From Actinomycetales bacterium JB111 (GTDB lineage Bacteria > Actinomycetota > Actinomycetes > Actinomycetales > Actinomycetaceae), in NCBI GenBank assembly GCA_900163555.1, contig FUHX01000025.1:1-64000 (forward strand): DNA of 64,000 bases, in the 5' to 3' direction. The notes beneath the pieces were generated by a model that was given only the letters and a program-made list of their open reading frames with translations, did no database searches and was not told where the DNA came from. Position numbers and translations under genes: made by a program. Below, piece after piece: positions 10,571 through 43,146 of this stretch (positions within the stretch are counted from its first letter, which is position 1; every line of letters starts with the position of its first letter).

Positions 10571-10645
10571 CCCGCGAGGTCGGAACGGACCGGGTCAGGT
10601 AGGAATTCCGAGTTCCTACCTCCCGCGCTCAGTTCCTCCCTCCCG
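10571..10645. repeat. Four-arm AGGTAGGAAC palindromic element, copy A
   Basis: Four related 10-bp arms: two direct (10577-10586 and 10597-10606) and two inverted (10612-10621 and 10632-10641). Spacing is 20, 15 and 20 bp between arm starts, the same as in the copy at 43070-43146. The outer arms of this copy have diverged. It lies between two minus-strand genes. Confidence 0.85.
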
Positions 10646-10663
10646 GAAGTCAGGCGTGGGGCA

Positions 10664-11863
10664 TCAGCGGGCGGGGGCGAGGTAGTCGATCGGGGTGAAG
10701 GTCGGCTCACCGGTCGCGACCTGCGCGAGCAGCTCGCCGATGGCCGGCGCGTGCTTGTGTCCGTGCCCGGAGTCCCCCGCCCCGACGACGATCCGACCCC
10801 TCCCCGGAATCGCACCCACGTGGAAGAGCCCGTCCGGCGCGCGCGTGTACATGCACGCGACCGCCTCGACCGGCTGCGGGTCGACGAGGTCGAACGCCTC
10901 CCCCACGGCCGCGCTCAGCGCCGCCGCGTCGCGCGGGAGGTTGATCGCCCGGTCGAGGTGGTCGGGATCCGCGTCCGCGAAGCCGAGGGAGTCCCCGCCG
11001 TCGTCGTCCAGGCCGATCTTCACGGCGAAACCGGACCCCTCGTCCGCGCCATGACCCCAGAGCACGCGACCGTCGGGCAGCTCGCGGATGAACACCGGGA
11101 AGCGGTCGAGCGCGAGGTCGCCCGCGAGGGCGTGTGGCTCCCGGCCGCGGAACCAGAACATCGGCACGCGTCGCGGCCGAAGCGGCATCTCCAGCAGGCG
11201 GGTCGTCCACGCGCCGGCCGTGACGATCACGCGGTCGGCCAGGATCCGGTCGCCCCCGGCCAGTCCCACCCCGACGCCGCCCGTCGTCTCGTCGATGTCC
11301 GTCACCCGGGTGCCGGTCAGCACGCGTGCGCCGAGTGCCTGCGCGGCCCCGACGGCGGCGCGGACCCCGGCCTCCGGGCGTGCGATCCCCGCGCCGGGGT
11401 CCCACAGGCCGACGTGGTCCTTGGGCAGGCGGGCGTAGGCGGGGAAGCGCTCCTTGACCTCGGCGGCGGTGAGATCCGTGGTCACGAGACCGGCCTCGGC
11501 GGCCGCGGCACGGGAGCCGGCGACGACCCGTCCGTCCGCGGGTCCCGACATGAGTCCGCCGGACAGCCGGAGGAGCTCGGCCCCGGTGGCGGACTCGAGG
11601 TCCCGCCACAGCTCCCGCGCGCGTCCGGCGACGACGCCGAGGCCCGGGTGCTCGAGGCAGGCCTCGCGGAAGAGCCGGGTGGTGCCGTGCGTGGACCCGA
11701 GGGCGTGGCCGATCTGGTGCTGCTCGATGCCGACCGCGCGGATGCCGCGCGCGGCGAGCCGCCACAGGGCGGTCGATCCCCAGGCGCCGAGCCCGACGAC
11801 GACCACGTCCGCCCGGTCCGGTGGCGGCTGGTTCGACGTCGGGGCGGGTGCGGGACTCGTCAT
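10664..11863 (-). CDS. FAD-dependent sarcosine / N-methyl-amino-acid oxidase (MSOX/SolA family)
   Basis: A 399-aa flavoprotein oxidase of the DAO superfamily, expected to demethylate an N-methylated amino acid (sarcosine, N-methyltryptophan or similar), releasing formaldehyde and peroxide. The FAD-binding motif VVVGLGAWGS is at about residues 20-30. Cys336 in the motif CMYTRAPDG matches the cysteine that covalently binds flavin in monomeric sarcosine oxidases. The C-terminal GDSGHGHKHAPAIG is typical. Length fits (about 380-390). ATG start, no strong ribosome site. Flanked by the four-arm repeat and by a terminator hairpin, so probably monocistronic. Substrate uncertain. Confidence 0.88.
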   Translation of the reverse strand: MTSPAPAPTSNQPPPDRADVVVVGLGAWGSTALWRLAARGIRAVGIEQHQIGHALGSTHGTTRLFREACLEHPGLGVVAGRARELWRDLESATGAELLRLSGGLMSGPADGRVVAGSRAAAAEAGLVTTDLTAAEVKERFPAYARLPKDHVGLWDPGAGIARPEAGVRAAVGAAQALGARVLTGTRVTDIDETTGGVGVGLAGGDRILADRVIVTAGAWTTRLLEMPLRPRRVPMFWFRGREPHALAGDLALDRFPVFIRELPDGRVLWGHGADEGSGFAVKIGLDDDGGDSLGFADADPDHLDRAINLPRDAAALSAAVGEAFDLVDPQPVEAVACMYTRAPDGLFHVGAIPGRGRIVVGAGDSGHGHKHAPAIGELLAQVATGEPTFTPIDYLAPAR

Positions 11864-11934
11864 GACGCCCAGGATGGCACCTCCGGATGGAGGGACGCGG
11901 GGACGACCGTCCCGTCCCGCGTCCGGCCGGAAAG

Positions 11935-11981
11935 CCGGAAGCGCCCCGCCACACCCTGTGGGTGCAGCGGGGCGCTTCCGG
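11935..11981 (-). terminator. Hairpin terminator of the LAxTG surface-protein gene
   Basis: A perfect 15-bp stem (arms 11935-11949 and 11967-11981) with a 17-nt loop, 40 bp after the stop of the surface-protein gene. On the minus strand it is followed by a short ctttcc stretch. It would separate that gene from the oxidase gene downstream. Confidence 0.75.
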
Positions 11982-12021
11982 TTGCGCTCCGTCGCCGCGG
12001 CTCAGCCGCGGCTACGGGTCA

Positions 12022-13842
12022 TCAGGCGCGGCGTGCGCGGCTGATGACGAGTGCTCCTGCGCCGGCTCCGATCAGCACGAGTGCGCCGATCAGGTAGGCA
12101 CGGAAGCCGTCGACGCCCGTGGAGGCGAGGTCGTCCTCGTCCGGGGTCGCCGGGTCGTCGTCGTCCGGGGTCGTCGGGTCGTCGGCGTCGGGGGTGACAC
12201 CGTTCCAGACGTCCTCGTCGCCGACACGCAGACCGGAGTCCGCGCCCGTGCCGGTCACCTGCGCCTCGTCGGAGTGGGTCGCGCCCGCTCCGAGAGCCGG
12301 CAGGGTGCCGGTGCAGTCGAACTGCGTGCCGACCGCGAACGGACCGGCCCAGGTGGTGCCGGTGGCGCCGTCCGGGAAGGTGCAGACGAGGTCGGAGATC
12401 TCGCCGGTGCCACCGGTGAGCCGGTCGCTGACGGTCACGTCGATCAGGTCCTCCGCGCCGCTGTTCGACACGGTGAAGTTGATCGTCGTGGTGGCGTCGG
12501 CGGAGAGCTCCGCGGCGGTCTCGTCGTGGTCACCGGCGAACCCGTCGTTCAGCAGGGCTCCGGACTCGTCGTACGCCGGTGCCTCGCCCTCGTCGTTCCA
12601 CTTCTCGATGTCGACACCCGGGACCGGGACGAACCCGTTCCAGTCGTCCTCGTCATCCACGTCGGCGCCCGAGTGGAGGCCGGTGGCGGTGACGACCGCG
12701 GTGTCGGAGTGGACGTCGCCGGCAGACAGCGCCGGCAGGGTGCCGGTGCAGTCGAACTGGACGCCGATCTCGAACGGGCCGGCCCAGGTGGTGCCGGTGG
12801 TGCCGTCCGGGAAGGTGCAGACGAGGTCGGAGATCTCGCCGGCGCCGCCGGTGAGCTGGTCGCTCACGGTGACGTCGATGAGGGGCTCCTTGCCGTCGTT
12901 GGAGACGGTGAAGTTGATCGTCTGCGGGGTGTCGGCCCGGAGTGCTGCGCCCGGGGCCTCGTCGTGGTCGCCGGCGTAGCCGTCGTTCTGCAGAAGGCCG
13001 GAGGCGTCGTAGGCCGGGGCCTCGCCCTCGTCGTTCCACTTCTCGATGTCGACGCTGGGGACCGGGACGTGGGAGTACCAGTCGTCCGAGTCGTCGACGT
13101 CCACGCGCGAGTGGACGCCGGTGCCCGTCACCGTGGCGGTGTCGGCGTGGAACTCACCGGTGGCGGTGAACGCCGGGACCGCGCCGGTGCAGTCGAACTG
13201 CGTGCCGACCACGAACTCGCCGGCCCAGGTGGTGCCGGTCGAGCCGTCCGGGAAGGTGCAGACCAGATCCGTGATCTCGCCGACCCCACCGGTGAGCTGG
13301 TCGCTCACGGTGATGTCCACGAGGTTCTCCTCACCATCGTTGGAGATGGTGAAGTTGATGGGCTGCAGCGTGTTGAGAGCGGTGGGCTTGCCCGGGCTCT
13401 CGTCGAAGTCGCCCTCGTAGCCGTCGTTCAGCAGAGCGCCGGTCTCGTCGTACTCGGGCGTCTCGTCGTTGCCCTCGTTGCTCCACTTCTCGATGTCGAT
13501 GCTCGGGACCGGGACGTAGCCGTTCCAGTCGTCCTCGTCGTCGACGTCCTCACCGGAGTGGAGACCCGTCGCCGTCACCGTGGCGGTGTCGGAGTGGGCG
13601 TCACCGGAGAACAGCGCCGGCAGGGTGCCGGTGCAGTCGAACTGCTCGCCGACCGCGAACGGTCCGGCCCAGGTGGTGCCGGTGGTGCCGTCCGGGAAGG
13701 TGCAGACGAGGTCGGAGATCTCGCCCGTGCCGCTGGTGAGCTGGTCGCTCACCGTGACGTCGACCAGGGGGTCCTCACCGTCGTTGGAGATGGTGAAGTT
13801 GATCGGCAGCGGGGTGTCGGCGTCGAGCTGGGTGCCGGGGGC
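12022..13842 (-). pseudogene. C-terminal part of LAxTG cell-wall surface protein, separated by an amber codon
   Basis: This reads in the same frame as the upstream part (13843-16932) and completes its repeat array, so both are one broken gene. It contains the rest of repeat 2 and repeats 3-5. The C-terminus is a sorting signal: an Asp/Pro-rich wall spanner, LASTG (an LAxTG class E sortase motif), a ~20-residue hydrophobic helix and a basic RARRA tail. The first in-frame GTG after the break (codon starting at 13752) lacks a signal peptide, so independent expression as a wall protein is unlikely. The break is a single GAG-to-TAG change and could also be a sequencing error or suppressible. Confidence 0.8.
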
Positions 13843-14400
13843 CTAGTCGTGGTCGCCGTCGAAACCGTCGTTCAGCAGAGCGCCGGTCTCGTCGTACTCG
13901 GGCGTGGCGCCCTCGTCGTTCCACTTCTCGATGTCGACGCTCGGCGTCGGGACGAAACCGTTCCAGTCGTCCTCGTCGTCGACGACCTCGCCGGACTCGA
14001 TACCGGTCGCCGTCACCGCGGCTGTGTCGGCGTGGAAGTCGCCGACCTGCAGCGCCGGCAGGGTGCCAGTGCAGTCGAACTGCTCACCGATCGCGAACGG
14101 GCCGGCCCAGGTGGTGCCGGTGGTGCCGTCCGGGAACGTGCAGACGAGGTCGGAGATGGTGCCGGCGCCGTCCGTGAGCTGGTCGCTCACCGCGACGTCC
14201 ACGAGCTGCTCGCGGCCGTCGTTCGAGATGGTGAAGTTGATCGGCAGCGGGGTGTCCGCGTCGAGCGACTTGCCCGGGGCCGAGTCGAAGTCGCCGGCGT
14301 AGCCGTCGTTCAGCAGGGCGCCGGTCTCGTCGTACTCGGGCGTGGCGCCCTCGTCGTTCCACTTCTCGATGTCGATGCTCGGGTCACCGGTCGGCACGAT
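12240..14400 (-). repeat. Five tandem ~438-bp repeats in the surface-protein gene
   Basis: The codons for DIEKW recur at 14359, 13921, 13483, 13036 and 12598, giving periods of 438, 438, 447 and 438 bp (146, 146, 149 and 146 aa). Each repeat carries a YDETGALLNDG-like segment, an INFT(I/V)SN segment, a DLVCTFPDG segment and a FDCTGTLPAL segment with paired cysteines, resembling Ig-like DUF11-type stalk domains. High DNA identity between units invites recombination. Confidence 0.93.
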
Positions 14401-16932
14401 GGTGGCCTCGGAGCCGGCGATCGAGTTGACGATGTCGCCCGTGGTGTCGAGCGCCCGCACCGCGAAGTAGCCGCGGATCGGCCCCTGGTTGGGGTCGAGC
14501 ACCGTGCCGTCGCGCTGGGCGAAGGTGACGACGCCGTCCTCGTAGGACATCTGCACGTTGCCGGGGACGTCGATCGGCCCTTCGGAGAAGTCGGTCACGA
14601 CCGGCACGCCGTTCGCGTCGACCGTCACGAAGCCGAGGAACTCGACGTCCGTGGGCAGGGTGTCCTGGCGCGGGAAGATCGCGACCGGGAACTCCGAGCC
14701 GTAGTTCCCGCGGGGGATCAGCTCGACCGAGTAGACGAACACGTCGTTGACGAACTCGCCGTCCTGGATCGGGGCGTTGAGCTCCTGGGTCCACGCCACG
14801 GCGTTCTCGTCGAAGACCCGCTTGCGGATCTCCGCCTCGTCGCCGAACGAGGTGGCCTCGGACTCGTCGTCCGCCCAGTAGGTCGGGGTCGTGCCGTCGC
14901 CGTAGAGCGTGGCGCGGTTGTAGATCTCGAAGGTCTCCTTGCCCTCGAACGGCACGGTCGTCATCACGGCTGTCGTGCTCCAGACCTGGCCCTCGGGCTG
15001 CGCAGCCACGCGGTCCTTGCCGGCCTGGCTGAGCTCGATGACGAGGTTGCCGTCGTCGTCGATCGACAGGGCGTAGTCGTCCGCACCGAGTGCGAGAGAG
15101 CCGTAGCTGCCCGAGATGTCGATCGTCGAGAGGTCGGAGAGGTCGTAGACCTCGGTGTCGATCTCGTCGACGATGCGGCTGAGCAGCGGGTCGATCGAGC
15201 CGCGGTTCGTGTTGACGCGGAACGTGTAGGGGATCTCGGCCGTCTGGCCCGGCTCCACGCGGACCTCGCCGTCCGGTCCGATCTTGGAGAACGCGTCGGT
15301 GTCGTGCAGACCGCCCTCGCGGTCGTCGGGGAGGACGACCGGGTGTGCGTCGTGCGACGAACGCCAGCGGGTGCTGCCGTCGTAGTAGAAACGCGCCTCG
15401 TTCGGCCAGACGTAGGAGGTGGCGCCGCGCACCGTGGTGCTGCCGCCCTCGGTGAGGCCGTCGACGGTCGTCAGCTGGGCGAGGGCCGAGATGACGATGT
15501 TGGTCGTGTTGTCCTGGCCCACGTTGATGAGCAGGGTCTGGCCGTCGAGGCAGAACTGGCCGACGAACTCGTCGCCCGCGAAGGCCGAGATGTTGTCGAC
15601 CGTCGTCGCCGGGCAGGCGCCCGCGTTGGTCAGGGTCGTGATCGGGCCCGCACCGGAGACCGTGAGGAACTCGGGCTCGCCGTCGCGCCACTGCGCCTGG
15701 TCGACGAGGACGTCGCGGATGACCACGTTCTGGTCGAGCGTGAAGTTCGCGTTGCGACCGTCCCACTGACGCAGGTCGGCGCGGAAGGTGTACGTCATGT
15801 CGAACGGCTGCTCGAGGTTGCCGTCCTCGTCGGTGATGACCTCGACGTAGTCGCGGTTACCCGACTTGTTGAACGCGTTGCCGACGCCGACGCCCGGGAT
15901 GTTGCCCGTGGCGCCGAACTGGGCGGTGCGCTCGATCTCGTCGCCGAAGGTGGCGGTGTTGACCAGGTTGTAGCCGTAGTTACCCGGGGTGTCGTTGCGA
16001 GCCTCGTACAGCTCACGCAGACGCGCCTCGATGGCGGTCTTGTCCGACACACGCGCGTTGTAGGTGATGACGAGGTGCGAGTTCGCCGGCACGTCGACCG
16101 TCGCGCTGAAGCCCTCGGTCTCGCCGCTGGAGTCGATCGTCGGGGTGAACGTGAAGTCCTCGGTCACCTCGTCCGGGTCGTACGTGGTGAGGGTCGCCGA
16201 GAAGGAGGCCGGGTCGTAGCTGAGGCCCGCAGGGAGCAGGTCCTCGATGCTGTAGCCCTCGCGGAGCTGGCTCGAGTCGAGCACCAGCGTGTAGGGCAGC
16301 ACGGCGTCCAGGACGTCGTCGCTCAGGCCGGTGAACGCGTAGTCCGGCGCGCCGGAGTTCTGGACGTAGCCGTTGAGGTTGCCGCCCGTGTAGCCCTTGC
16401 TGTAGGCGTCTGCCACCTCGACCGGCGGGACCTCTTCGTTCTCGACGATGACGGTCAGCCCGCCTTCCTCGCCGTCCACGACCCATGAGATCGGGGTCTC
16501 GGTATCGCCGTCGACCTCGCTCGCGACGAGGTTGAACGCGAACGCGCCCTCCGTGATGTCGTCAGGGATCGGGTCCTTGAAACGCATCGTGTAGGTGCCG
16601 TCGCCGTTGTCGACGATCGACTCGAGGGCCTGGTTGGTAGGCAGGCCGCCCGGGATCGTGATGCCCGGCGGCAGGGTGATCGTGATCTCCTTGCCGTCGA
16701 TCGCCTCGGCCGCGTCGTACGACACGCGCAGGGTCAGGGCGTCGCCCTCGGGGATCGTCGCACCTTCCTCGACGACGCTGCCGTTGTGGAGAAGGTCGAT
16801 CGCGATTCCGTCGGTGGCCGCGGTGGCCGCCGGCATGGCGATCACCGACGCGACGACGGCGATCAGCATGGCGGTCAGGCCGGCGAGCAATCGCCGGAAT
16901 ATCTGTGTGCGCGGAGGCGCTTGGGAACTCAA
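13843..16932 (-). CDS. N-terminal part of large LAxTG surface protein (repeat-stalk adhesin-like), ends at an amber codon
   Basis: A secreted wall protein; with the downstream part it would be about 1636 aa. The TTG at 16932 is chosen because GGAGG lies 6 nt upstream and the codons that follow give a basic N-terminus, hydrophobic core and signal-peptidase site near MPAATAA. A ~850-aa N-terminal region with SpaA/isopeptide-adhesin-like character precedes repeats 1 and 2. The frame ends at TAG (plus-strand cta, 13843-13845) where sister repeats have GAG in the DHDEAPG context. A class E sortase in this same window is the likely anchoring enzyme. An adhesive or structural role is inferred from architecture. 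Confidence 0.82.
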   Translation of the reverse strand: MSSQAPPRTQIFRRLLAGLTAMLIAVVASVIAMPAATAATDGIAIDLLHNGSVVEEGATIPEGDALTLRVSYDAAEAIDGKEITITLPPGITIPGGLPTNQALESIVDNGDGTYTMRFKDPIPDDITEGAFAFNLVASEVDGDTETPISWVVDGEEGGLTVIVENEEVPPVEVADAYSKGYTGGNLNGYVQNSGAPDYAFTGLSDDVLDAVLPYTLVLDSSQLREGYSIEDLLPAGLSYDPASFSATLTTYDPDEVTEDFTFTPTIDSSGETEGFSATVDVPANSHLVITYNARVSDKTAIEARLRELYEARNDTPGNYGYNLVNTATFGDEIERTAQFGATGNIPGVGVGNAFNKSGNRDYVEVITDEDGNLEQPFDMTYTFRADLRQWDGRNANFTLDQNVVIRDVLVDQAQWRDGEPEFLTVSGAGPITTLTNAGACPATTVDNISAFAGDEFVGQFCLDGQTLLINVGQDNTTNIVISALAQLTTVDGLTEGGSTTVRGATSYVWPNEARFYYDGSTRWRSSHDAHPVVLPDDREGGLHDTDAFSKIGPDGEVRVEPGQTAEIPYTFRVNTNRGSIDPLLSRIVDEIDTEVYDLSDLSTIDISGSYGSLALGADDYALSIDDDGNLVIELSQAGKDRVAAQPEGQVWSTTAVMTTVPFEGKETFEIYNRATLYGDGTTPTYWADDESEATSFGDEAEIRKRVFDENAVAWTQELNAPIQDGEFVNDVFVYSVELIPRGNYGSEFPVAIFPRQDTLPTDVEFLGFVTVDANGVPVVTDFSEGPIDVPGNVQMSYEDGVVTFAQRDGTVLDPNQGPIRGYFAVRALDTTGDIVNSIAGSEATIVPTGDPSIDIEKWNDEGATPEYDETGALLNDGYAGDFDSAPGKSLDADTPLPINFTISNDGREQLVDVAVSDQLTDGAGTISDLVCTFPDGTTGTTWAGPFAIGEQFDCTGTLPALQVGDFHADTAAVTATGIESGEVVDDEDDWNGFVPTPSVDIEKWNDEGATPEYDETGALLNDGFDGDHD

Positions 16933-17255
16933 GGAGATCCTCCAGTGGACGGGGGTGGAGTCGACACGGCATGAGACAGTCCGCGCCTCCGGGAGCATAG
17001 GCATGGCCGCCAACCCGGATTCACGAACTTATGGCGCTGTTATGTGTCACGCGCGTCGGCCCGCGCAGCAGTGAGATGTCCGCCCGTCCGGCACCGCCTG
17101 ATCGCCACTTCGCGATCGCTGTCACGGTGGTCGCCACCCGCTCGCCCTCGAGCCTCGGGCCGGACGACGACGAGCTGCCGACCACACCCCGTGAACGACG
17201 AGATCCCCGGCCCGTTGGGATTCCAACGAACCGGGGACCTGGACTTGTGCTCGCG
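16933..17255. other. Gap upstream of the surface-protein gene, holding the tRNA-Leu terminator
   Basis: No gene is evident in these 323 bases. It should carry the surface-protein promoter (minus strand, not confidently located) and contains the hairpin at 17204-17237 after tRNA-Leu. Confidence 0.6.
17204..17237 (-). terminator. Hairpin terminator after tRNA-Leu
   Basis: A 15-bp stem with two adjacent mismatches (arms 17204-17218 and 17223-17237, 4-nt loop) lies about 20 bases beyond the 3' end of the minus-strand tRNA gene. Confidence 0.65.
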
Positions 17256-17339
17256 TGCGCGAGGGGGGAGTTGAACCCCCACGCCCTTTCGGGCACACGG
17301 ACCTGAACCGTGCGCGTCTGCCTATTCCGCCACTCGCGC
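17256..17339 (-). tRNA. tRNA-Leu (anticodon CAG)
   Basis: An 84-nt class II tRNA: acceptor stem GCGCGAG/CTCGCGC, D-loop with TGGCGGAATAGGCAGACGC, anticodon loop TTCAGGT giving CAG, a long variable arm (TGCCCGAAAGGGCG) and a T-arm with GGTTCAACTCC. The CCA end is not encoded. A tRNA-Leu beside fhaA is also known in mycobacteria. Confidence 0.95.
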
Positions 17340-17374
17340 GAGATCGCTGGACGTGTCCGAACAGCGAGGACGAG

Positions 17375-17380
17375 ATTATC
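17375..17380 (-). promoter_or_regulatory. Candidate -10 element for tRNA-Leu
   Basis: GATAAT on the minus strand, about 35 nt upstream of the mature tRNA 5' end, in an otherwise GC-rich context. No convincing -35 was found. Confidence 0.4.
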
Positions 17381-36333: not shown

Positions 36334-36375
36334 CGACGAGGGCCGTTCCCCTGTGCAGGGGGACGGCCCTCGTCG
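36334..36375 (+). terminator. Hairpin terminator after the KP-rich protein gene
   Basis: Arms 36334-36352 and 36357-36375 form a 19-bp stem with one G-T wobble and a 4-nt loop, 17 bp after the stop. Confidence 0.85.
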
Positions 36376-36478
36376 GCTGCGTGGGGTGAGAGCTCGCCGT
36401 GGGGTGCGCACGTGGCGTCGGTCGTGCGCAGGTGCGGTGCGCGGGTGCGTCCGCGCGTGTCCCGCGAGCTCGCGCGGA

Positions 36479-37030
36479 CTACTCGGTGGCGGTCTCGCTG
36501 CCCACCGGGTTGGTCGGGTGGTCGCAGTAGAAGAGGTCGCCGTCCGGACCCGCGTGGAAGTGGTACTCGGTGCCGCCGATGGCGAGGACGACGTGGGAAC
36601 CGTCCACGAGTGCCTGGGTGTACATCTGGCCCGGGTCGGGGCAGCCGAGGGACCCGTCGCTCCAGGTGACGGGGCCCGAGTCGATGAGATCGACCTCGGT
36701 GACGTCCACGCCCTGCTCCGCGGCGAGGTTCTCCATGAGGTCGTCGATGTCGGAGTACTCGGGGATCTCGACGTCGGACCCGTCCGTCGGGGAGTCCTCG
36801 GGCCCGGTGGTGGGTGCGGGTTCGGACCCTTCCCCCTCGGTGCCGGTCTCGCCGGGACCGGTCGCGTCGTCGTCGGAGGGGGTGTCCGGGGTCTGCGTCT
36901 GCTCGGGCGACGTGGAGTCGTCGGCGGACGGCCCGGCCGTGCTCTCCCCGTCCTGGCCGGACGAGCAAGCGCCAAGGACGAACATGCCGCCGACGACCGT
37001 CAGCAGCACCGCACGCGGCATCACTCTCAT
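36479..37030 (-). CDS. Secreted lipoprotein of unknown function
   Basis: 183 aa with a lipoprotein signal (lipobox VLGAC, Cys22) and a ~75-residue Ser/Thr/Asp/Pro-rich linker. A small C-terminal domain follows, containing TWSDGSLGCPDPGQMYTQA and a YHFHAG segment; this DGSLGCP...YTQ pattern recurs in small actinobacterial secreted proteins. The ATG follows an AGGAGGGAGG site. No function is assigned. Confidence 0.85.
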   Translation of the reverse strand: MRVMPRAVLLTVVGGMFVLGACSSGQDGESTAGPSADDSTSPEQTQTPDTPSDDDATGPGETGTEGEGSEPAPTTGPEDSPTDGSDVEIPEYSDIDDLMENLAAEQGVDVTEVDLIDSGPVTWSDGSLGCPDPGQMYTQALVDGSHVVLAIGGTEYHFHAGPDGDLFYCDHPTNPVGSETATE

Positions 37031-37165
37031 GGTGAGACCTCCCTCCTGAGGCCGAGCCTAGAGAGCGATGGGGAGTTCTGCACGGCTAGAGGTACCCACC
37101 GTTCCGACAGCGTTTCGGCGCACGAGCGTGCCGGTTGCGTGGATGGACGAGTCTCGCGGGTCCGG

Positions 37166-37522
37166 TCAGGCTCCCCGGCTGCCGCCGCCGGCAGGCTGGG
37201 CGGCGACGAACGGGGTGTCCACCCCGACGACGCCGAACCAGGACGCACCGGCCGGCGCCCCGACCGCCTCGTCCCGGCCGGGCAGGGTCTCGTGGAAGAA
37301 GCGCGCGTTGTCCTCGGCGTAGGGCCGGAGCGACGGCGGGAGATCGTCCTCGTAGTAGATCGCGACGACGGGGCAGACGGGCTCGCACGCGGCGCAGTCG
37401 ATGCACTCGTCGGGCTGGATGTACAGCATGCGGCTGCCCTCGTAGATGCAGTCCACCGGGCACTCGTCGACGCACGCGCGATCCAGCACGTCGATGCACG
37501 GTTGACCGATCACGAAGGTCAT
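37166..37522 (-). CDS. fdxA: 7Fe ferredoxin (FdxA type)
   Basis: 118 aa, an electron carrier with one [3Fe-4S] and one [4Fe-4S] cluster. The first Cys set lies in CIDVLDRACVDECPVDC and the second in CIDCAACEPVCP. The N-terminus TFVIGQPCIDVLD and the C-terminal FFHETLPGRDE are typical of actinobacterial FdxA. A ~30-residue Gly/Ala tail follows. Divergent from the cupin gene, 38 bp away. Confidence 0.96.
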   Translation of the reverse strand: MTFVIGQPCIDVLDRACVDECPVDCIYEGSRMLYIQPDECIDCAACEPVCPVVAIYYEDDLPPSLRPYAEDNARFFHETLPGRDEAVGAPAGASWFGVVGVDTPFVAAQPAGGGSRGA

Positions 37523-37548
37523 GGCCGGAGCCTACGCCGGGGCCCTCC

Positions 37549-37554
37549 TAGGAT
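37549..37554 (+). promoter_or_regulatory. -10 element of a probably leaderless cupin mRNA
   Basis: TAGGAT matches the actinobacterial TANNNT -10, ending 6 bases before the ATG at 37561. Transcription would start at or next to the start codon. Confidence 0.5.
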
Positions 37555-37560
37555 CGATGG

Positions 37561-38049
37561 ATGGAGCACGACCAGAGTCCGACGTCCGCCGGCCCGCACG
37601 ACGTTCCCCTTGTGCTCGTGTCGACCGCCGGCCTGACGGGTTCCTTGGAGGGCGACGCCTCGTCCGATGCCTCGAGCTCGGGTGGGCGGGGCTCCGGTGG
37701 GTCGAGCTCCGGTGAGCCGCGCTCCGGTGGGTCGAGCTCCGGTGAGCCGCGCTCCGGCGCGGTCTGGCGGCACGACGTCCCGGGCCGCGGCCTGGACGCG
37801 AACGTCATCCACCTGCCGCCGGGCGAGGCGATCGAGCCGCACGACGGCCCGACCCTCGACGTCCTCTGGCACGTCATCAGCGGCGACGGCACCCTCCTCA
37901 CGGCCGACGGCGAGGCACCCGTGCGGGCCGGCGACGTCGTGCATCTCCCGCGCGGGAGCCGGCGGGGCGTCCGGGCGGGCGGGTCCGGCCTGACCTACCT
38001 GACCGTGCACGCGAAGAAGCCCGGGCTCGGGCTGGGGCCCACCCGATAG
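37561..38049 (+). CDS. Cupin-domain protein with a Ser/Gly minisatellite insert
   Basis: 162 aa. Residues 70-150 form a single cupin barrel (VIHLPPGEAIEPHDGPTLDVLWHVISGDGTLL, then AGDVVHLPRGS). The N-terminal half has a Ser/Gly/Pro/Arg insert (about 38-67) encoded by a 30-bp tandem repeat. The probable promoter is 6 bases upstream, so the mRNA is likely leaderless. The last 13 codons and stop lie in the first unit of a 40-bp duplication. Metal ligands are incomplete (one His), so catalysis is doubtful. Confidence 0.82.
   Translation: MEHDQSPTSAGPHDVPLVLVSTAGLTGSLEGDASSDASSSGGRGSGGSSSGEPRSGGSSSGEPRSGAVWRHDVPGRGLDANVIHLPPGEAIEPHDGPTLDVLWHVISGDGTLLTADGEAPVRAGDVVHLPRGSRRGVRAGGSGLTYLTVHAKKPGLGLGPTR
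37696..37755 (+). repeat. 30-bp minisatellite inside the cupin gene (2 units)
   Basis: Two identical 30-bp units (37696-37725 and 37726-37755), preceded by a partial related unit. Each encodes GGSSSGEPRS, keeping frame if copy number varies. Confidence 0.92.
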
Positions 38050-38090
38050 CGCGAGAAAGCCCGGGCTCGGGCTGGGGCCCACCCGATAGC
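38011..38090 (+). repeat. 40-bp tandem duplication across the cupin stop codon
   Basis: Units 38011-38050 and 38051-38090 differ at two bases near the start. The first encodes the cupin C-terminus and its TAG stop; the second is non-coding and its end forms the -10 of the next gene. Confidence 0.93.
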
Positions 38091-38092
38091 GT
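38087..38092 (+). promoter_or_regulatory. -10 element of the probably leaderless winged-helix gene
   Basis: TAGCGT (TANNNT type) ends 6 bases before the ATG at 38099. Its first bases are the second copy of the sequence that contains the cupin stop codon. Confidence 0.5.
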
Positions 38093-38098
38093 CGGCGC

Positions 38099-39250
38099 AT
38101 GGCCACCCGCCGGCTCACCGCCTCCGCCGCCCGTCGCGCCCGCCTCGACAGCCAGCTTCTCGGAGGCTCGGACCTCACCCCCGCGCAGGTCGTGGCGCGC
38201 GCCGGCGCGCTGCAGGGGCAGGACCTGGCGGGCGTGCTCCGCGCGATCGCCGTCCGCTCCCGGCCCGGGACGACCCTGGAGTCCGTCCGCGAGGCCTTCG
38301 ACCGGGGCGAGATCGTCCGCTCCTGGCCCATGCGCGGCACCCTGTTCGCGACGACGCCGGAGCACCTCGCCGGCATCCTCGCCTCCACGGGGCCGCGGCA
38401 CCTCCGGTCGACGGCGAAGCGCCGGGTCGAGCTCGGCCTGACCGACGAGGTGGTCGTGCGGGCGCGGTCGGTCGCCCTCGAGCGCCTGGCCGACCGGCCG
38501 TTCACGCGCGCCGAGATCCTCGCCGCCTGGGCGGAGGCCGGCATCGAGAGCTCGGGCGGCCGCGGCTACCACCTCATCGCGCACCTGGCCATCGCCGGCG
38601 ACGCGCACTGGGGGCCGTTCGCGCGGGCTGATCGCGCCGGTGGTGAGGGCGCGGGCAGTGATCGCGGGGGTGCTGGCGGCCCGGCCTCCGGCGGCATCGT
38701 CACTCCCCCGACCGAGCAGCTCCTCACCCGCACCGCCGAGGGGGCCCGGCCGCAGGCCGTCAGCGACCCGGCGGCCGCGCTCGCGCGCGCGATCGAGGCC
38801 TACGTCCGGGCCCGCGGGCCAGTCACCGAGGCGGATCTGCAGTGGTGGACGAAGCTCCCGCTGAGCGTCCTGCGCCCGGTGGCCTCCGCCGTCGGAGAGC
38901 TCGAGACGGTCGAGGCGGACGGGGTCGAGGCGTGGGTCCTCCCCGACGACGGCGAGATCACCCGCCCGAAGCGCCCGCGGGCACTCCTCGCGCCGGCGTT
39001 CGACGAGATCATCCTCGGCTACCAGGACCGTGCGCTCGTGGCCGACCCGGCGATGCAGCGGGCGATCGTGCCCGGGAACAACGGGGTGTTCCGGCCGGTC
39101 GTGCTCCTGGACGGCCGCGCCGTCGGCACGTGGAAGGTCCCCGCCTCGGGGGCGCGCGAGCCGGTGGCGGAGATGGTCGAGGAGGTGGGTCCGTCGGCGC
39201 TCGGGCTCATCGACAAGGCGCTGGCGGCCTGGCCGCACCGCGCGGGGTAG
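38099..39250 (+). CDS. Winged-helix DNA-binding domain protein (HTH_42/AlkX-like)
   Basis: A 383-aa protein of the winged-helix HTH_42 family (PF06224-like). Seen: LGGSDLTPAQVVARAGALQGQD, the WPMRGTLF segment, TRAEILAAWAEAG, a Thr-rich TPPTEQLL region and the C-terminal LAPAFDEIILGYQDR and PGNNGVFRPVVLLDG. Related proteins include the E. coli DNA glycosylase YcaQ, but the family members differ in activity. A Gly-rich insert interrupts residues 180-205. No ribosome site is needed if leaderless. Confidence 0.85.
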   Translation: MATRRLTASAARRARLDSQLLGGSDLTPAQVVARAGALQGQDLAGVLRAIAVRSRPGTTLESVREAFDRGEIVRSWPMRGTLFATTPEHLAGILASTGPRHLRSTAKRRVELGLTDEVVVRARSVALERLADRPFTRAEILAAWAEAGIESSGGRGYHLIAHLAIAGDAHWGPFARADRAGGEGAGSDRGGAGGPASGGIVTPPTEQLLTRTAEGARPQAVSDPAAALARAIEAYVRARGPVTEADLQWWTKLPLSVLRPVASAVGELETVEADGVEAWVLPDDGEITRPKRPRALLAPAFDEIILGYQDRALVADPAMQRAIVPGNNGVFRPVVLLDGRAVGTWKVPASGAREPVAEMVEEVGPSALGLIDKALAAWPHRAG

Positions 39251-39351
39251 GCGATCGAGCAGGCCGAGCGGGCCGCCTGGTCCCCCGCCGTCGGCCACCG
39301 ACGGGAGACGGTTTCCGTCGTACGGGGCCCGACCTCCGCCGTCGGACGGGT

Positions 39352-39954
39352 CTAGTGGGTCTCGTCGAGGAGGGTGAGGGCGTCGTCGAGCGCCTCCGAC
39401 ACCTCCAGGTTGTGCTCGCGGGAGTGGCTGAGTCCCACCTTGATGGCGGCCCAGGTCACGGAGGTGAGGAGCATGGGCCGGATATCCTCGGCCGCGTCGA
39501 CGCCCATGCGCTCGGCGAGCGCGACCGCCACCGCCCGCTCGACTGCGGTCGTGGCCGACGCGAGGGCGGCGAACATCGACGGGTCGCGCAGGACGATCGA
39601 GCGGCGGAGCCGCCACAGCCCCTTGTCCGCAGCGAGGCGCTCGGCGTACTCCCGCAGGCATCCCCGGACCGCCTCGGTCGGCGTCTCCTCCGCGGGCCGG
39701 TCCCGCAGGCGGCCGGCCACGTCGTCCGCCTCCTCGGGGTGGATCCCGAGGACCGCGGACTCCTTCGTGGGGAAGTAGTTGAAGAACGTGCGCGTGGAGA
39801 CGCCGGCGGCCTCGGCGATGTCCTCGACCGTCGACTGGGCGAGCCCACGCTCGGCCACGAGCTCCACCGCCGAGCGGTGCAACGCCCTGCGCGTCTGCAC
39901 CTTCTTCCGCTCGCGGAGCCCGACCTCGCCGCTGTCGCGCACGTCCACACTCAT
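39352..39954 (-). CDS. TetR-family transcriptional regulator
   Basis: 200 aa with the TetR HTH at about residues 15-62 (ALHRSAVELVAERG...TVEDIAEAAGVSTRTFFNYFPTKE) and a variable ligand domain. The ATG at 39954 is chosen because the 39990 start would extend through a palindrome. Divergently transcribed from a drug-efflux gene; it most likely represses that gene and itself through the palindromes in the shared promoter region. Confidence 0.93.
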   Translation of the reverse strand: MSVDVRDSGEVGLRERKKVQTRRALHRSAVELVAERGLAQSTVEDIAEAAGVSTRTFFNYFPTKESAVLGIHPEEADDVAGRLRDRPAEETPTEAVRGCLREYAERLAADKGLWRLRRSIVLRDPSMFAALASATTAVERAVAVALAERMGVDAAEDIRPMLLTSVTWAAIKVGLSHSREHNLEVSEALDDALTLLDETH

Positions 39955-39977
39955 GCCTGCATCGTACCCGTGAGATA

Positions 39978-39989
39978 TGCAATGTTGCA
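39978..39989. promoter_or_regulatory. Candidate TetR operator 1
   Basis: TGCAATGTTGCA: perfect 5-bp arms TGCAA/TTGCA with a 2-nt centre, 24 bp upstream of the TetR start. Confidence 0.55.
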
Positions 39990-40001
39990 CTCCATGCGTA
40001 A

Positions 40002-40016
40002 TTGCAGCGTCTGCAA
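40002..40016. promoter_or_regulatory. Candidate TetR operator 2
   Basis: TTGCAGCGTCTGCAA: perfect 6-bp arms with a 3-nt centre, sharing the TTGCA half-site with the neighbouring palindrome. Confidence 0.55.
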
Positions 40017-40163
40017 GTTGGGTGTAACCTGTTTCCGTTCGGCCCGCTGATGGGGCGCGCCGACATCCCTCGGTGATGACGCCCTTCCCGGCGCGACGGG
40101 CCGCCCCTGACGGCGCGCGCCGGGACGGCCGGAATCCCTCTCACCCACGCCCGGGAGTAATGA

Positions 40164-41909
40164 ATGAGCGCAGTTTCGTCGTCTGCTTCGCCGACTCCAC
40201 CCGCCGGACAGGCCGCCCGCGGTCCCGGCGAGTACGGCGGGCTCGACACGCAGGGGCGCCGGATCTTCATCGGCCTCCTGCTCGGCATGTTCGTCGCCTC
40301 GATCAGCCAGACCATCGTCTCGCCCGCGATGCCCCGCATCGTGGCCGAGCTCGGCGGCATGGACCACTACTCGTGGATCGCCACGTCCGCCATGCTCGTC
40401 TCCGCGGTGACGGTCCCGATCGTCGGGAAGCTCTCCGACCTCTACGGCCGCCGCGGCTTCTACCTCGCCGGCCTGGTCGTCTTCATGATCGGCTCGGTCA
40501 TCTCCGGCGTCTCCGACGACTTCTGGCTGCTCGTCGCCGGGCGCGCTGTCCAGGGCCTCGGCATGGGCACCCTGATGCCGCTGTCGCAGACGATCATCGG
40601 CGACATCATCCCGCCCCGTCAGCGTGGCAAGTACCAGGGGCTCATGGGCGCGACCTTCGGCATCTCGTCCGTCGCCGGGCCTCTCCTGGGCGGCTTCATC
40701 ACCGACCACCTGGGCTGGCGGGTCCTGTTCTTCGTCACCCTGCCGATCGGCGTCGTCGCGTTCGTCGTCATCGCCGCGTTCCTGCACCTGGACCACCAAC
40801 CGCGCAAGGCGAAGGTCGACGTCCTCGGCATCGTCGTGCTGAGCGCCTCGATGGTCACCCTCCTGCTCGCCACGAGCTGGGGCGGCACCACCTACGCCTG
40901 GGGCTCCGCCACGATCATCTCGATGTTCGTCGCGGGCGCGATCGGCCTCGCCCTGTTCGTCCTCATCGAGCTGCGCGTCCCCGAGCCGGTCATCCCGCTG
41001 CGCCTGTTCGCCAACTCGGTCTTCACGTTCTCGAACATCGCGTCCTTCGGCGTCGCCATCGCGATGTTCGGCGCCATCTTCTACATCCCGGTGTATGCGC
41101 AAGGCGTCCACCTCGTCGACGCCACGCACTCCGGGCTCATCACGATGCCGCTCATGCTGGCCATGGTCGTGGTCGGCATCCTCGCCGGCCTGCTCGTGAC
41201 GAAGACCGGCACGTACAAGTGGATCATCCTCAGCGGCATCACCGTGATGGCCCTCGGGTACGTCCTGCTCTCGATGCTCGAGTTCACCGACCCGACCTGG
41301 CGCCTGACCGGGGCGATGCTCGTCGTCGGCATCGGCCTGGGCGCGTGCATGCAGAACCTCACCCTGGTCGTGCAGAACACTGCGGACCGCAAGGACCTCG
41401 GCATCGCGACCGCGTCCAGCCAGTTCTTCCGCAACATCGGCTCCACCGTGGGCATCGCGGTCTTCGGCTCGATCATGAACAGCGAGATGCCGACCGCGAT
41501 CGCCGGGCACCTCCCCTCCGACGTCCAGCTGCCGGCGTCCGGGTCCACGGACGGGATCGGCTCGATCCTCGACCCCGACCGCCTGGCTGCCCTGCCCGAG
41601 CCGGTCGCCCTCGCGATCCGCATGGGGCTCGCGGACGCCCTGCACGTGGTGTTCCTCGCCGCGATCCCGGTACTGGCCTTCGCCCTGCTCGCCGCGTCCT
41701 TCATCAAGTCGGTCCCCCTGCGTACCACGCTGCAGAGCGCGGACGAGATCGCGAAGGAAGGCGCCGCGACGCAGGCGGTCGAGAAGCAGGCCGCCGCACT
41801 CGCGCCCTCCGAGGCCCAGGCCGAGGACGCCGCTCAGGATGCGGGCGCCCCCGGTGAGCCGGACGGCCCGGCGGACAGCGAGGACGAGCTGGTCCCGAGC
41901 CGCACCTGA
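40164..41909 (+). CDS. DHA2-family MFS multidrug exporter (14 helices)
   Basis: 581 aa, EmrB/QacA-like proton antiporter. About 14 membrane helices; motif A as GKLSDLYGRRG and motif C-like GISSVAGPLLGGFI in helix 5. An acidic Ala-rich C-terminal tail of ~55 residues follows. ATG with GGGAG upstream. Divergent from the TetR gene with palindromic operators between them, so expression is probably ligand-inducible. Exported compounds unknown. Confidence 0.93.
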   Translation: MSAVSSSASPTPPAGQAARGPGEYGGLDTQGRRIFIGLLLGMFVASISQTIVSPAMPRIVAELGGMDHYSWIATSAMLVSAVTVPIVGKLSDLYGRRGFYLAGLVVFMIGSVISGVSDDFWLLVAGRAVQGLGMGTLMPLSQTIIGDIIPPRQRGKYQGLMGATFGISSVAGPLLGGFITDHLGWRVLFFVTLPIGVVAFVVIAAFLHLDHQPRKAKVDVLGIVVLSASMVTLLLATSWGGTTYAWGSATIISMFVAGAIGLALFVLIELRVPEPVIPLRLFANSVFTFSNIASFGVAIAMFGAIFYIPVYAQGVHLVDATHSGLITMPLMLAMVVVGILAGLLVTKTGTYKWIILSGITVMALGYVLLSMLEFTDPTWRLTGAMLVVGIGLGACMQNLTLVVQNTADRKDLGIATASSQFFRNIGSTVGIAVFGSIMNSEMPTAIAGHLPSDVQLPASGSTDGIGSILDPDRLAALPEPVALAIRMGLADALHVVFLAAIPVLAFALLAASFIKSVPLRTTLQSADEIAKEGAATQAVEKQAAALAPSEAQAEDAAQDAGAPGEPDGPADSEDELVPSRT

Positions 41910-41942
41910 GCTCCCCGTGTCCGCCACGGCGGACGCACCGTC

Positions 41943-42000
41943 CCGGCCCGACGCCGGTCGGCAACTTCCATGAAGAAGGTGCCGACCGGCGTCGGGCCGG
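41943..42000. terminator. 21-bp perfect hairpin between convergent genes
   Basis: Arms 41943-41963 and 41980-42000 pair over 21 bp, loop 16 nt (itself able to form a small CTTC/GAAG helix). It lies between the MFS gene (+) and the small hypothetical gene (-), fitting a bidirectional terminator. Confidence 0.88.
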
Positions 42001-42029
42001 GTGCGTTGTGTGGTGGTTCGTGCAGGGTG

Positions 42030-42473
42030 TCAGGCGCCGGCGGGGCCCGAGGCCCCGCGCATGAGGTCGAACAGGCGCTCGGTCTCGGCGCGCTGGTCGG
42101 CCAGGGTGACCACCTCGGCGGGGTCGACCGGGTCGAAGGTGGCGACGACGTCGCCGGCGCCCGTGGGGGTGAGCCGGTAGGCGCGCAGGCCGCCGCCCTG
42201 GTCGCGGGCCATCCCGCTCGGCCAGACGTCGGCGAGGGCGCCGCGGAGCCCGAGTCGCCAGCCGTCGGGCTCGAGACGGTCGCGGATCGTGCACAGGGCC
42301 TCGAAGGCGTCGTCCTCCCCGGCCCCGACGGGTGTGCCGCCGTCGAGGGCGCCGCAGGCGATGCGGACGGTGTAGGTGGGCGCGGGGCCGGACCAGGTCA
42401 CCGACCATGAGGCGGTCGCCGGGTGGCGCGCGCCGTCGCGGAGCATCTCGAACGCCTGTGAACCCTCGGGCAT
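42030..42473 (-). CDS. Conserved hypothetical protein (147 aa)
   Basis: A small soluble protein not confidently recognised. Seen: an N-terminal MPEGSQAFEMLRDGAR, a central segment with two Cys (RIACGALDGG, ALCTIRDRLEPDGWRLGLRGA), DVWPSGMARDQGGGLRAYRL, and a C-terminal helix with ETERLFDLMRG. The ATG at 42473 is chosen for the GAGGGGAG site upstream. No signal peptide or membrane helix. Confidence 0.75.
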   Translation of the reverse strand: MPEGSQAFEMLRDGARHPATASWSVTWSGPAPTYTVRIACGALDGGTPVGAGEDDAFEALCTIRDRLEPDGWRLGLRGALADVWPSGMARDQGGGLRAYRLTPTGAGDVVATFDPVDPAEVVTLADQRAETERLFDLMRGASGPAGA

Positions 42474-42678
42474 GAGTGGGCTCCCCTCACGGTCGGTGGG
42501 CGCGGACGAGGCCAAGTATGCGCGAAACCGCGTCGAGTGGAGGGTGGAGTCGCTCGGTGGAGCGTGTGGAGGGGCTCCACCCGACGTCTCAACACTCCAC
42601 CCGGTGAGCTACGCCGGCCCCGACACGCGGCGAAGGCCGCCTCCCGTGCGGGAGACGGCCTTCGTGGTCATTCGGCTG

Positions 42679-42751
42679 TGGAGCCACGGGGACTCGAACC
42701 CCGAACCCCCTGCTTGCAAAGCAGGTGCGCTACCAATTGCGCCATGGCCCC
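42679..42751 (-). tRNA. tRNA-Ala (anticodon TGC)
   Basis: A 73-nt tRNA: acceptor GGGGCCA/TGGCTCC (one G-T pair), D-arm GCGCAATTGGTAGCGC, anticodon loop TTTGCAA giving TGC, T-arm GGTTCGAGTCC, discriminator A. In many actinobacteria this tRNA follows gyrA and tRNA-Ile, near the origin. Confidence 0.95.
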
Positions 42752-42856
42752 TCACGCCGGCCGGGGGCCGACGTGCCGACGACGTCATGTCGACGGCGAT
42801 ACAGCATACGTCAGGATCCCCCGGCCCCATGCGTGCATTCGGTCACGAGCGGGAGC

Positions 42857-42973
42857 TCAGACCTCGTCGGTGACCTCGGCCCAGATCTCGCGCTCCTCGC
42901 GGTTCTGCTGAACCTTGATCCAGACGACGTATCCGACGACGGCAGCGGTCGCGATGAGCAGGAACTTCTTCAT
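42857..42973 (-). CDS. DLW-39 family small membrane protein (38 aa)
   Basis: A 38-aa micropeptide: basic start MKKF, one membrane helix (about 4-19), then a charged tail KVQQNREEREIWAEVTDEV, where EIW replaces the family DLW. ATG preceded by GGAGG. This family is characteristic of actinobacteria and sits beside tRNA-Ala and gyrA. Function unknown. Confidence 0.88.
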   Translation of the reverse strand: MKKFLLIATAAVVGYVVWIKVQQNREEREIWAEVTDEV

Positions 42974-43069
42974 GCTGTGGCCTCCAGGATGGGCGTGGCG
43001 TGGGGCGATGTCGCCCAGGAACAACCGTATCGAAGGCCGGCCCGCCACGGTGCCCCGCCCCACCCGCTC

Positions 43070-43146
43070 CCGCGAGGTAGGAACGGAGAGCGTGAGGTAG
43101 GAACTTTCCGTTCCTACCTGGCCGCCTCCGTTCCTACCTCGCGGGA
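43070..43146. repeat. Four-arm AGGTAGGAAC palindromic element, copy B
   Basis: AGGTAGGAAC at 43076-43085 and 43096-43105, its complement GTTCCTACCT at 43111-43120 and 43131-43140. The outer arms extend to a perfect 19-bp inverted repeat (43070-43088/43128-43146). Arm spacing of 20, 15 and 20 bp equals that of copy A at 10571-10645. Confidence 0.92.

Follow-up and report, generated by a model that had tools for sequence, protein, structure and literature searches.

CGAG-tagged four-arm palindromes in an actinomycete genome and a candidate AbiEi-Vsr nuclease partner in its relatives

REP sequences and their RAYTs are the classic example of very short repeats that owe their maintenance to a single gene. 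For CGTC-type REPs, the 2013 REP survey reports no linked transposase gene, and "Actinobacteria", the former name of Actinomycetota, is absent from its main text (PMC3733652). AbiEi antitoxins bind palindromes located in their own promoters (PMC11062541).

Analyzing a 64,000-nucleotide stretch of Actinomycetales bacterium JB111 (contig FUHX01000025.1; the window) in the context of its genome and relatives, we found a family that shares with REPs and REPINs the occurrence of dispersed intergenic palindromes in tens: 32 full-length copies, with 25 of the 28 examined lying outside predicted genes. Rather than a palindrome of 20-40 bp with an unpaired GTAG or CGTC end, the element spans about 70 bp, has four arms, and carries GTAG inside every arm, within the paired stem. 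We propose the name CGAG-tagged four-arm palindromes, and read them, with a probability of about 0.6, as REP/REPIN-like dispersed palindromes with a predicted AbiEi-Vsr nuclease in place of RAYT.

Window copies and the genome-wide family

The window contains two full copies and one worn element, listed with the neighboring genes.

8502..10571, minus strand: ABC1 atypical kinase gene (PF03109, E 1e-54); the 5' end is that of the longest open reading frame, and the real start is probably further in
10570..10648, unstranded: element copy 1, four inward arms of dialect CGAGGTAGGAAC (profile 73.0 bits, E 5.3e-20), between the ABC1-kinase gene and the FAD-oxidoreductase stop codon, both genes on the minus strand; arm starts 10577, 10597, 10612, 10632 (steps 20, 15, 20)
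10664..11863, minus strand: FAD-dependent oxidoreductase (DAO) gene (PF01266, E 4.6e-44), its 3' end abutting copy 1
42534..42604, unstranded: third four-arm element, worn, of a second dialect; starts 42534, 42554, 42575, 42595; arms in order CGAGTGGAG, TCGGTGGAG, reverse complement of TCGGGTGGAG, reverse complement of CCGGGTGGAG; spacing read by eye, with only the first arm exact
43068..43146, unstranded: element copy 2, with AGGTAGGAAC in each of its four arms (profile 80.4 bits, E 2.7e-22), about 10 bp downstream of the MFS-transporter stop codon (gene on the minus strand); arm starts 43075, 43095, 43110, 43130 (steps 20, 15, 20)
43155..44693, minus strand: MFS transporter gene (PF07690, E 3.9e-53), its 3' end abutting copy 2

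The original prediction of two copies with arm starts spaced 20, 15, and 20 bp is borne out for both, and the perfect 19-bp outer inverted repeat it assigned to one of them is found in copy 2, where direct reading extends it to 21 bp. Lone arms, allowing at most two mismatches, show no enrichment in the window (20 observed against 17.9 expected); what stands out is the four-arm arrangement. The second dialect is intact at L290:6268-6337, beside this genome's nuclease gene on contig C33, and nearly intact at L033:11705-11774 and L043:18015-18083.

The two-copy observation was correct but understated, as the element is neither limited to two copies nor missing from relatives. Genome-wide, a three-arm pattern with up to three mismatches gave 50 matches, 25 on each strand, whereas the control, the pattern in reverse, gave 0. 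A profile based on the sequence of 28 copies alone, used to score 150 of 4181 candidates, places the 32 full-length copies between E 6.5e-24 and about 1e-15, followed by a gap in score and then by worn or partial copies. Arm geometry is common to 30 of the 32; the exceptions are C31:38051, with one inner arm short by one base, and C73:23565, whose left spacer is 21 bp longer through three extra 7-bp units. At the gathering score, Rfam had no match in four copy-bearing loci of this genome. Here, the AGGTAGGAAC family seems to be an old one.

Drift is lower in the arms than in the spacers: 92 of 1232 arm positions (7.5%) are off consensus, compared with 131 of 504 spacer positions (26%; Fisher p 2.6e-23). 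Pairing between the two halves amounts to 82.0% over all copies and to 81.9% after shuffling, so that the halves do not co-vary in this genome, as expected if the sites are bound separately. Constraint thus appears to act on the arms rather than on the hairpin, and selection for a hairpin or an RNA structure finds no support in this genome. The element had been proposed to be REP-like, a cruciform, or a multi-site protein target. The same pairing values give no support to a cruciform in this genome, whereas the other two proposals are well supported by dispersed, mostly intergenic copies, independently constrained arms, dialects, and the linked DNA-binding gene in relatives described below.

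Relatives and a candidate partner gene

The arm motif originally put forward was too narrow: what is shared family-wide is the core CGAGGTAG, repeating each 19-21 bp and oriented inward, and the GGAAC tail is the dialect of this genome. Scanning the whole collection, we found the three-arm core in at least 120 stretches, with Oerskovia, Cellulosimicrobium, Isoptericola, Krasilnikoviella, Sanguibacter, Cellulomonas, Specibacter, Flavimobilis, and MAGs among the matches listed. Copy numbers in relatives reach the tens, with tails that are specific to the lineage. Copies at unrelated places are 88-100% identical in O. rustica and similar in genome G048 (mean column identity 90% over 25 copies read), and sequence similarity of this degree suggests that dispersal in both is recent. 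At two loci the element is present in one species and missing at the matching place in another; both empty sites are not clean. In the sole orthologous element pair with cores not forced by our search pattern (L121:4136 and its L155 match), cores have changed as much as spacers, with two changes each, which counts against the preferred reading. The copies of relatives lie mostly 3' of genes and not in promoters, at a median of 17 bp past the stop codon in tandem gene pairs, and are enriched in convergent gaps (30/79 against 114/492 neighbor pairs, p 0.008), with the simple gene call behind this placement overlapping the element in 15 of 88 cases.

Clustering of the genes next to elements gave no recognizable transposase-like recurrent partner among the 40 largest groups, the largest of which we take to be ABC transporters, and no DDE transposase family among the recurrent neighbors. 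The candidate partner was detected through the element clusters of G048 because one reading frame, inside a ribosomal-protein cluster, sat between two copies. The encoded protein, of about 310-340 residues, joins an AbiEi-like winged-helix part at its N terminus to a predicted nuclease domain of the Vsr/homing-endonuclease type at its C terminus, and in relatives such genes are flanked by palindromes of matching dialect. An iterated profile search of 10,507 open reading frames from 213 loci identified six homologous genes, each with arm clusters nearby, and a seventh, from G120, was recovered by two independent searches. Among the six, the gene from a MAG is bordered by a palindrome on one side and by the contig start on the other, and the downstream palindrome of the Sanguibacter gene is 621 bp away. 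In O. rustica the gene is split over two frames.

In a fold search with an AlphaFold model of middling confidence (pLDDT 74.7, four sequences), the AbiEi antitoxin structure 6y8q was the only match below 0.001 (E 7.6e-4). The catalytic domain of I-Bth0305I (3r3p) followed with a TM score of 0.73-0.77 over the target and E 0.08-0.15, and Vsr (1vsr, 1cw0) with E 0.14-0.26. Best E values to PADLOC AbiEi families range from 8.1e-10 to 2.5e-15 in four proteins and reach 1.3e-4 in the G048 protein; Pfam AbiEi_4/AbiEi_1 matches two of five partner proteins, below cut-off. By these matches, the proteins have the AbiEi N-terminal domain. The putative nuclease domain, a candidate for the PD-(D/E)XK/Vsr fold of the MTES_1575 type, matches PF18741 in four of the five proteins (best E 3.9e-5, all below the curated cut-off, with Foldseek E values of 0.08 or worse), and D231, E242, D244, G245, and K248 are invariant in the five sequences.

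The dialect flanking the gene is that of the dispersed copies in all five genomes compared, as judged by eye and with one dispersed copy read each for G120 and Sanguibacter. Selecting 33 nuclease genes by protein sequence alone, we found that the flanks of 17 share a repeat of at least 16 nt, compared with 0 of 116 controls; the other 16 have no common flank repeat of that length. On the protein tree, dialect labels, assigned by eye to 31 of 37 rows, need 17 changes (minimum 16; shuffled mean 24.3; 0/200 as low), suggesting that palindrome dialects mostly track the protein tree. The CGAGGTAG label is not one clade, needing four changes for four rows, two of them forced by well-supported branches. 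Homologs of the nuclease gene occur in 158 of 213 family genomes but the CGAGGTAG dialect in only 8 of 213; thus, gene presence alone does not predict this dialect. In this genome, the placed nuclease gene is bordered by a palindrome on just one side, and that palindrome belongs to another dialect. Two more homologs were counted without position, none of them in the 890,662 bases searched, and we did not find the nuclease that would be cognate to AGGTAGGAAC in this genome.

Proposed mechanism and competing readings

The computations show the family and its geometry, the smaller drift in arms than in spacers, the dialects, the dispersal, the association with the gene, the agreement in dialect of dispersed and gene-flanking copies, and the resemblance in fold; that the partner protein binds the arms, cuts, and copies the element is what we infer. 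At least two arms per side, each made of CGAG and a lineage-specific tail (CGAGGTAGGAAC here), lie about two helical turns apart and face the center. In the most likely mechanism, the AbiEi-like part would bind them cooperatively on one DNA face, the nuclease domain would cut within the palindrome or close to it, and repairing the break would copy or spread the palindrome. Copies would persist where harm is small, often just past stop codons. We see an even chance that this is an undescribed kind of mobile DNA, in which CGAG-tagged multi-arm palindromes are spread by AbiEi-Vsr homing-type nucleases with dialects matched to nuclease lineage. No description of such a system was found in the open-access literature searched, most subscription papers lying outside it, and the core motif as a word had no visible link to it among the open-access matches listed. 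If true, a common protein family otherwise taken as a stray antitoxin or restriction-like gene would gain a function, and the natural pairs of DNA site and protein, in many dialects, would be useful for studying how winged-helix specificity evolves.

A somewhat unlikely alternative is that the sites are static, with the AbiEi-like protein acting as a repressor or chromosome organizer, the gene-adjacent palindromes as its operator, and the dispersed ones as regulon or structural sites. It would fit the promoter binding of AbiEi antitoxins and the constraint on arms without hairpin co-variation. Copy numbers of around 30, seen in this genome, G048, and 8 of 10 Cellulomonadaceae-group genomes (two-strand rows halved, 150 candidates scored per genome) also favor it, but Specibacter, G419, and G458 have only 3 to 11. 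Copies are retained at orthologous places in different species with their cores largely intact, an outcome that the search pattern forces for three arms; the conservation of three of the four cores in the Cellulomonadaceae alignment is likewise forced by that pattern and carries no evidential weight. Copies lean to the origin side in two complete genomes starting at dnaA, a post hoc observation with the dnaA start recognized by eye. However, palindromes also lie downstream of the partner gene, the placement in relatives is mostly not in promoters, and an operator has no need of a nuclease domain. Moreover, the occurrence of recent look-alike copies in unrelated places, of elements that one species has and another lacks, and of a patchy distribution suggests that the copies move.

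An RNA-level element, either a bidirectional terminator or an mRNA-stabilizing hairpin at gene ends, is improbable. The convergent-gap enrichment and stop-codon proximity in relatives would suit it, as would spacers that match better within one copy than between copies in several of their subfamilies, and the C-rich flank that precedes the palindrome whichever direction is read. In this genome, however, copies occupy divergent gaps (7/25) no less often than convergent ones (5/25), and stem-keeping co-variation, not seen here, is weak in G048, where 30-50 of 500 shuffles are as high. The flanks are C-rich or G-rich rather than T-rich, so the GC-rich stem followed by a T-run of a rho-independent terminator is not present, and flank skew is equal on gene-start and gene-end sides. 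A terminator reading of the C-rich flanks was rejected, since the skew is independent of gene direction.

Still less probable is a defense role, in which the Vsr-like nuclease would cut, for example, invading DNA with or without palindromes, and the palindromes would be self marks, decoys, or controlled targets. AbiEi families are included in PADLOC and a Vsr/restriction-type fold is suitable, MTES_1575 being described as a Vsr REase fold in PMC3710099, but two exact element patterns had no match in viral contigs.

Finally, a classical REP moved by RAYT (Y1 HUH), with the AbiEi-Vsr gene a bystander between REPs, resembles the element in general look, gene-end placement, and lineage dialects (PMC3733652) but is very improbable: the linked RAYT originally suggested was dropped after PF01797, positive in five control genomes, gave 0 matches in this genome and none in 9 of 10 element-bearing relatives (Sanguibacter hominis has one), and the dialect seems mostly to track the AbiEi-Vsr protein tree.

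Relation to described systems

Under the preferred reading of a REP-like palindrome with a nuclease partner, several known systems share parts of the design. MITEs are likewise short, non-coding, dispersed elements with inverted arms, but no target-site duplication of lengths 3-9 was found in 26 own and 69 other copies. The partner resembles AbiEi antitoxins of type IV toxin-antitoxin systems in predicted N-terminal fold and DNA-binding role, but here the AbiEi-like part is fused to a predicted nuclease domain and the palindromes are dispersed. Its modeled C-terminal fold may resemble that of Vsr and the Vsr-type homing endonuclease I-Bth0305I, but no intron is seen here, and a multitude of short palindromes would serve as targets. 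CGTC-type REPs, like the element here, are REP-like palindromes that carry an invariant four-base tag and lack a RAYT; they differ in tag and taxa.

The closest counterparts are GTAG-type REPs, REPINs, and REPtrons, which, according to PMC3733652 and PMC3116915, are short dispersed palindromes, intergenic and mostly past gene ends, with paired inverted units, a less conserved spacer, lineage dialects, and a gene that has copies in its dialect on its flanks. In contrast to these, the element described here has at least four inward arms at 19-21 bp and a CGAG tag, shows no hairpin co-variation in the genome analyzed, occurs in Actinomycetota, and has a predicted AbiEi-Vsr nuclease as its partner instead of a Y1 HUH transposase. 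If true, it would be an Actinomycetota counterpart of REP/RAYT that spreads through DNA cutting and repair, not HUH single-strand transposition, and a second system of this kind, built on an enzyme unrelated to RAYT, would demonstrate that the REP-like lifestyle arose more than once, by other chemistry.

Copies, geometry and drift in the JB111 genome

The element family is real. Both copies in the window lie where the original prediction placed them, with arm starts spaced 20, 15 and 20, and the genome-wide search for more copies that it called for found 28 by pattern and 32 full-length ones by a sequence-only profile in this 3.26-Mb genome of 85 contigs. Below these, the profile matched worn or partial ones, including a two-arm palindrome at C47:64873 (C-numbers are contigs of this genome unless another is named).

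Elements in the window
10570-10648: copy 1, four-arm palindrome with two arms per side facing the centre
43068-43146: copy 2, same form
42534-42604: worn element of a second dialect, CGAGTGGAGGG

Arm spacing is identical in 30 of the 32 full-length copies. One copy has lost a base, and at C73:23565-23664 the left spacer is exactly 21 bp longer, in three units of 7 bp that together equal two helical turns, so that its arms stay in phase. Several copies coincide with breaks in the draft assembly (ends of C10, C23 and C44, start of C41), and two more contig edges, the C11 end and the C48 start, carry weak partial matches.

Across the 28 pattern-found copies, the 11-nt arms (112 in all) are off consensus at 92/1232 positions, versus 131/504 for the 9-nt spacers (p 2.6e-23). 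Arm variants comprise 14 transitions and 78 transversions, concentrated at few positions, and spacer variants 61 and 70. The search pattern favours intact arms, a bias that we take to be small since the whole-length profile, built from those 28, added just four full copies. If the palindrome were held as a stem, changes in its halves should match; in this genome 82.0% of cells pair versus 81.9% in shuffles, so the stem reading is not supported. Left and right spacers here are no more alike within a copy than between copies (0.637 and 0.637). Relatives' spacers were compared after grouping by period and first two spacer bases, and two groups are reversed.

Spacer identity in relatives, within copy/between copies
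19 AA: 0.93/0.77
19 AC: 0.985/0.906
20 AA: 0.80/0.65
20 AG: 0.71/0.50
19 TG: 0.705/0.644
19 AG (reversed): 0.61/0.69
19 GA (reversed): 0.64/0.68

We read new palindromes as symmetrical, with later drift during which the arms would be held. The orthologous pair L121:4136 and L155 (L-numbers are extracted loci), whose cores were not forced by the pattern, differs by two core and two spacer changes, counts that argue against arms being held while spacers drift.

Judged against a simple GC3 gene prediction, 25 of the 28 copies fall outside genes and 3 overlap a predicted one; the 25 with a predicted gene on each side comprise 13 tandem, 7 divergent and 5 convergent settings. In relatives, where 15/88 elements overlap a gene call, 30/79 copies lie between convergent genes against a background of 114/492, and in tandem pairs the median distance from the upstream stop codon to the element is 17 bp. 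No target-site duplication was seen around copies. The strand running outward from copies in JB111 is strongly G-rich (for example, window 10545-10569 and 43147-43175), with a pooled GC skew of about +0.5 over 30 bp that reaches zero by about 90 bp; it occurs on both sides independently of gene direction, is weaker in relatives (+0.2) and has a value of zero in the remaining intergenic DNA. G580 and G419 are complete genomes that start at dnaA, as recognised by eye; post hoc, copy positions in them appear uneven, those of one avoiding a wide stretch about the expected terminus and those of the other crowding near the origin.

Dialects, arrays and probable movement among relatives

The main JB111 dialect, AGGTAGGAAC, matches none of 212 other genomes of the family with up to two mismatches, and has no exact match in an 84,980-species collection from which JB111 itself was possibly left out. 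The profile matches 9/395 other genomes of the order, and arms are visible in seven of the order-level loci read; the matches at L078 and L079 lack arms and look like chance. What relatives share is CGAGGTAG or near it, inward-facing at a 19-21 bp period. A scan for three such cores found at least 120 stretches, the matches listed including Oerskovia, Cellulosimicrobium, Isoptericola, Krasilnikoviella, Sanguibacter, Cellulomonas, Specibacter, Flavimobilis, MAGs and Sphaerisporangium-titled records. Among the first 80 parsed, two arms per side is the commonest form (56 clusters) and arrays reach 6+6 arms. A broader profile matches 8/213 genomes of the family (3/36 genera) and 13/13 element-bearing genomes, picked for carrying elements, at 6 to 85 matches each, both strands counted. 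In a class-wide sample the exact three-arm core occurs in JB111 alone (1/394), which says little since that sample also missed element-bearing genera of the order.

Krasilnikoviella and Isoptericola carry arrays with 9 to 12 arms (L134:6192-6360, L131:6211-6438, L112:7002-7234). Matching places of the L134 and L131 arrays in a relative hold 3 or 4 arms, and exact-looking tandem copies of a 19-20 bp unit are present elsewhere; arrays thus seem to grow by unit duplication. In Cellulosimicrobium cellulans PW, one intergenic gap holds a giant nested palindrome (L140:1891-2235): four arms with a period of 21 bp, followed by a distinct long inverted repeat and then by three arms in the opposite orientation. 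Six loci titled Sphaerisporangium cinnabarinum ATCC 31213 (L086, L100, L113, L115, L120, L125) are on Cellulosimicrobium-like contigs, L115 being 96.8% identical to C. funkei L160 across 7.5 kb; the record title may be wrong.

In Oerskovia rustica, copies 88-100% identical occupy unrelated places. Between Oerskovia species, the element is present versus absent at two matching places (L145:3070/L109, L155:3232/L121), neither with a clean junction, and at two others (L107/L158, L111/L153) both species carry it in differing dialects.

A predicted nuclease gene as probable partner

A link to a RAYT transposase, suggested by the original prediction, did not hold, as no RAYT gene was found in JB111 or in 9/10 relatives. 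In G048, a genome of the same family with 32 element places (one partial, some clustered), a frame lies between two clustered copies, with gaps of 5 and 26 bp to the longest reading frame, inside a ribosomal-protein gene cluster with L16 and L14 to either side; it has no Pfam match. A growing-profile search of 10,507 ORFs in 213 loci found exactly six such genes, 6/6 with arm clusters near, a proximity expected of loci chosen for carrying elements.

The six partner genes
G048: arm clusters nearby
O. turbata: arm clusters nearby
O. rustica: gene divided between two frames, at a contig start
Sanguibacter hominis: downstream cluster 621 bp off
Flavimobilis rhizosphaerae: variant cores
Actinomycetales MAG: arm cluster on a single side, the opposite one being the contig start; variant cores

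In another genome, G120, a protein search gave the gene C37:110883-111863 and a separate element search gave 110670-110743 and 112023-112097. PADLOC AbiEi models hit the N-terminal region of partner proteins, and some of five proteins also have matches to Pfam AbiEi, MTES_1575 REase and DUF559, all below cut-off; D231, E242, D244, G245 and K248 are invariant across the five. An AlphaFold model (pLDDT 74.7) resembles AbiEi antitoxin 6y8q (E 7.6e-4) and, at its C-terminus, the I-Bth0305I homing endonuclease catalytic domain (TM 0.73-0.77 over target, E 0.08-0.15) and Vsr (E 0.14-0.26).

A profile of five proteins matches 158/213 genomes of the family. Flanks of 39 matched genes were taken from match ends, not gene ends, and two with short flanks were dropped; the 116 control genes came from JB111 and Cellulomonadaceae loci, and most cases are from other genomes. 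The two 400-bp flanks have a repeat of at least 16 nt in common in 19/37 (17/33 without four discovery genes) versus 0/116 controls, and palindromes scoring at least 16 occur on both flanks in 17/37 versus 4/116 and on either flank in 30/37 versus 42/116. Many of these palindromes belong to other dialects; several are four-armed and CGAG-initial (CGAGATCGAC, CGAGTTCGC and CGAGTGGAG, whose spacing a generic scan confirmed; CGAGTCGG, CGAGCCGGGC and CGAGAGGTGC, by eye), and others have no visible CGAG start. On the 37-protein tree, dialect labels, assigned by eye in 31/37 rows, need 17 changes (minimum 16; shuffle mean 24.3; 0/200 as low), a figure helped by near-copies; the CGAGGTAG label needs four, two forced by well-supported branches. 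In 5/5 genomes, gene-side copies share a spacer dialect, judged by eye, with that genome's dispersed copies.

JB111 has three partner homologs by count, one of them placed, on C33, where a four-arm CGAGTGGAGGG element (L290:6268-6337) adjoins the predicted nuclease gene; this dialect has four arms at two further places, and a third, CGAGTTCGTG, is at L043:8800-8869. Eleven head-to-tail GGTCACGC units (L290:5040-5127) also adjoin the C33 gene. A search of 890,662 bases turned up no predicted nuclease gene with flanking AGGTAGGAAC arms, and the cognate nuclease may be lost, unassembled or elsewhere.

Relation to known repeat families

The element-gene association is well supported; the mechanism linking the two is an inference. 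The family is REP-like in form and behaviour and differs from RAYT-type REPs in two of their defining features. We file it with the REP-plus-partner kind, its partner being a predicted nuclease.
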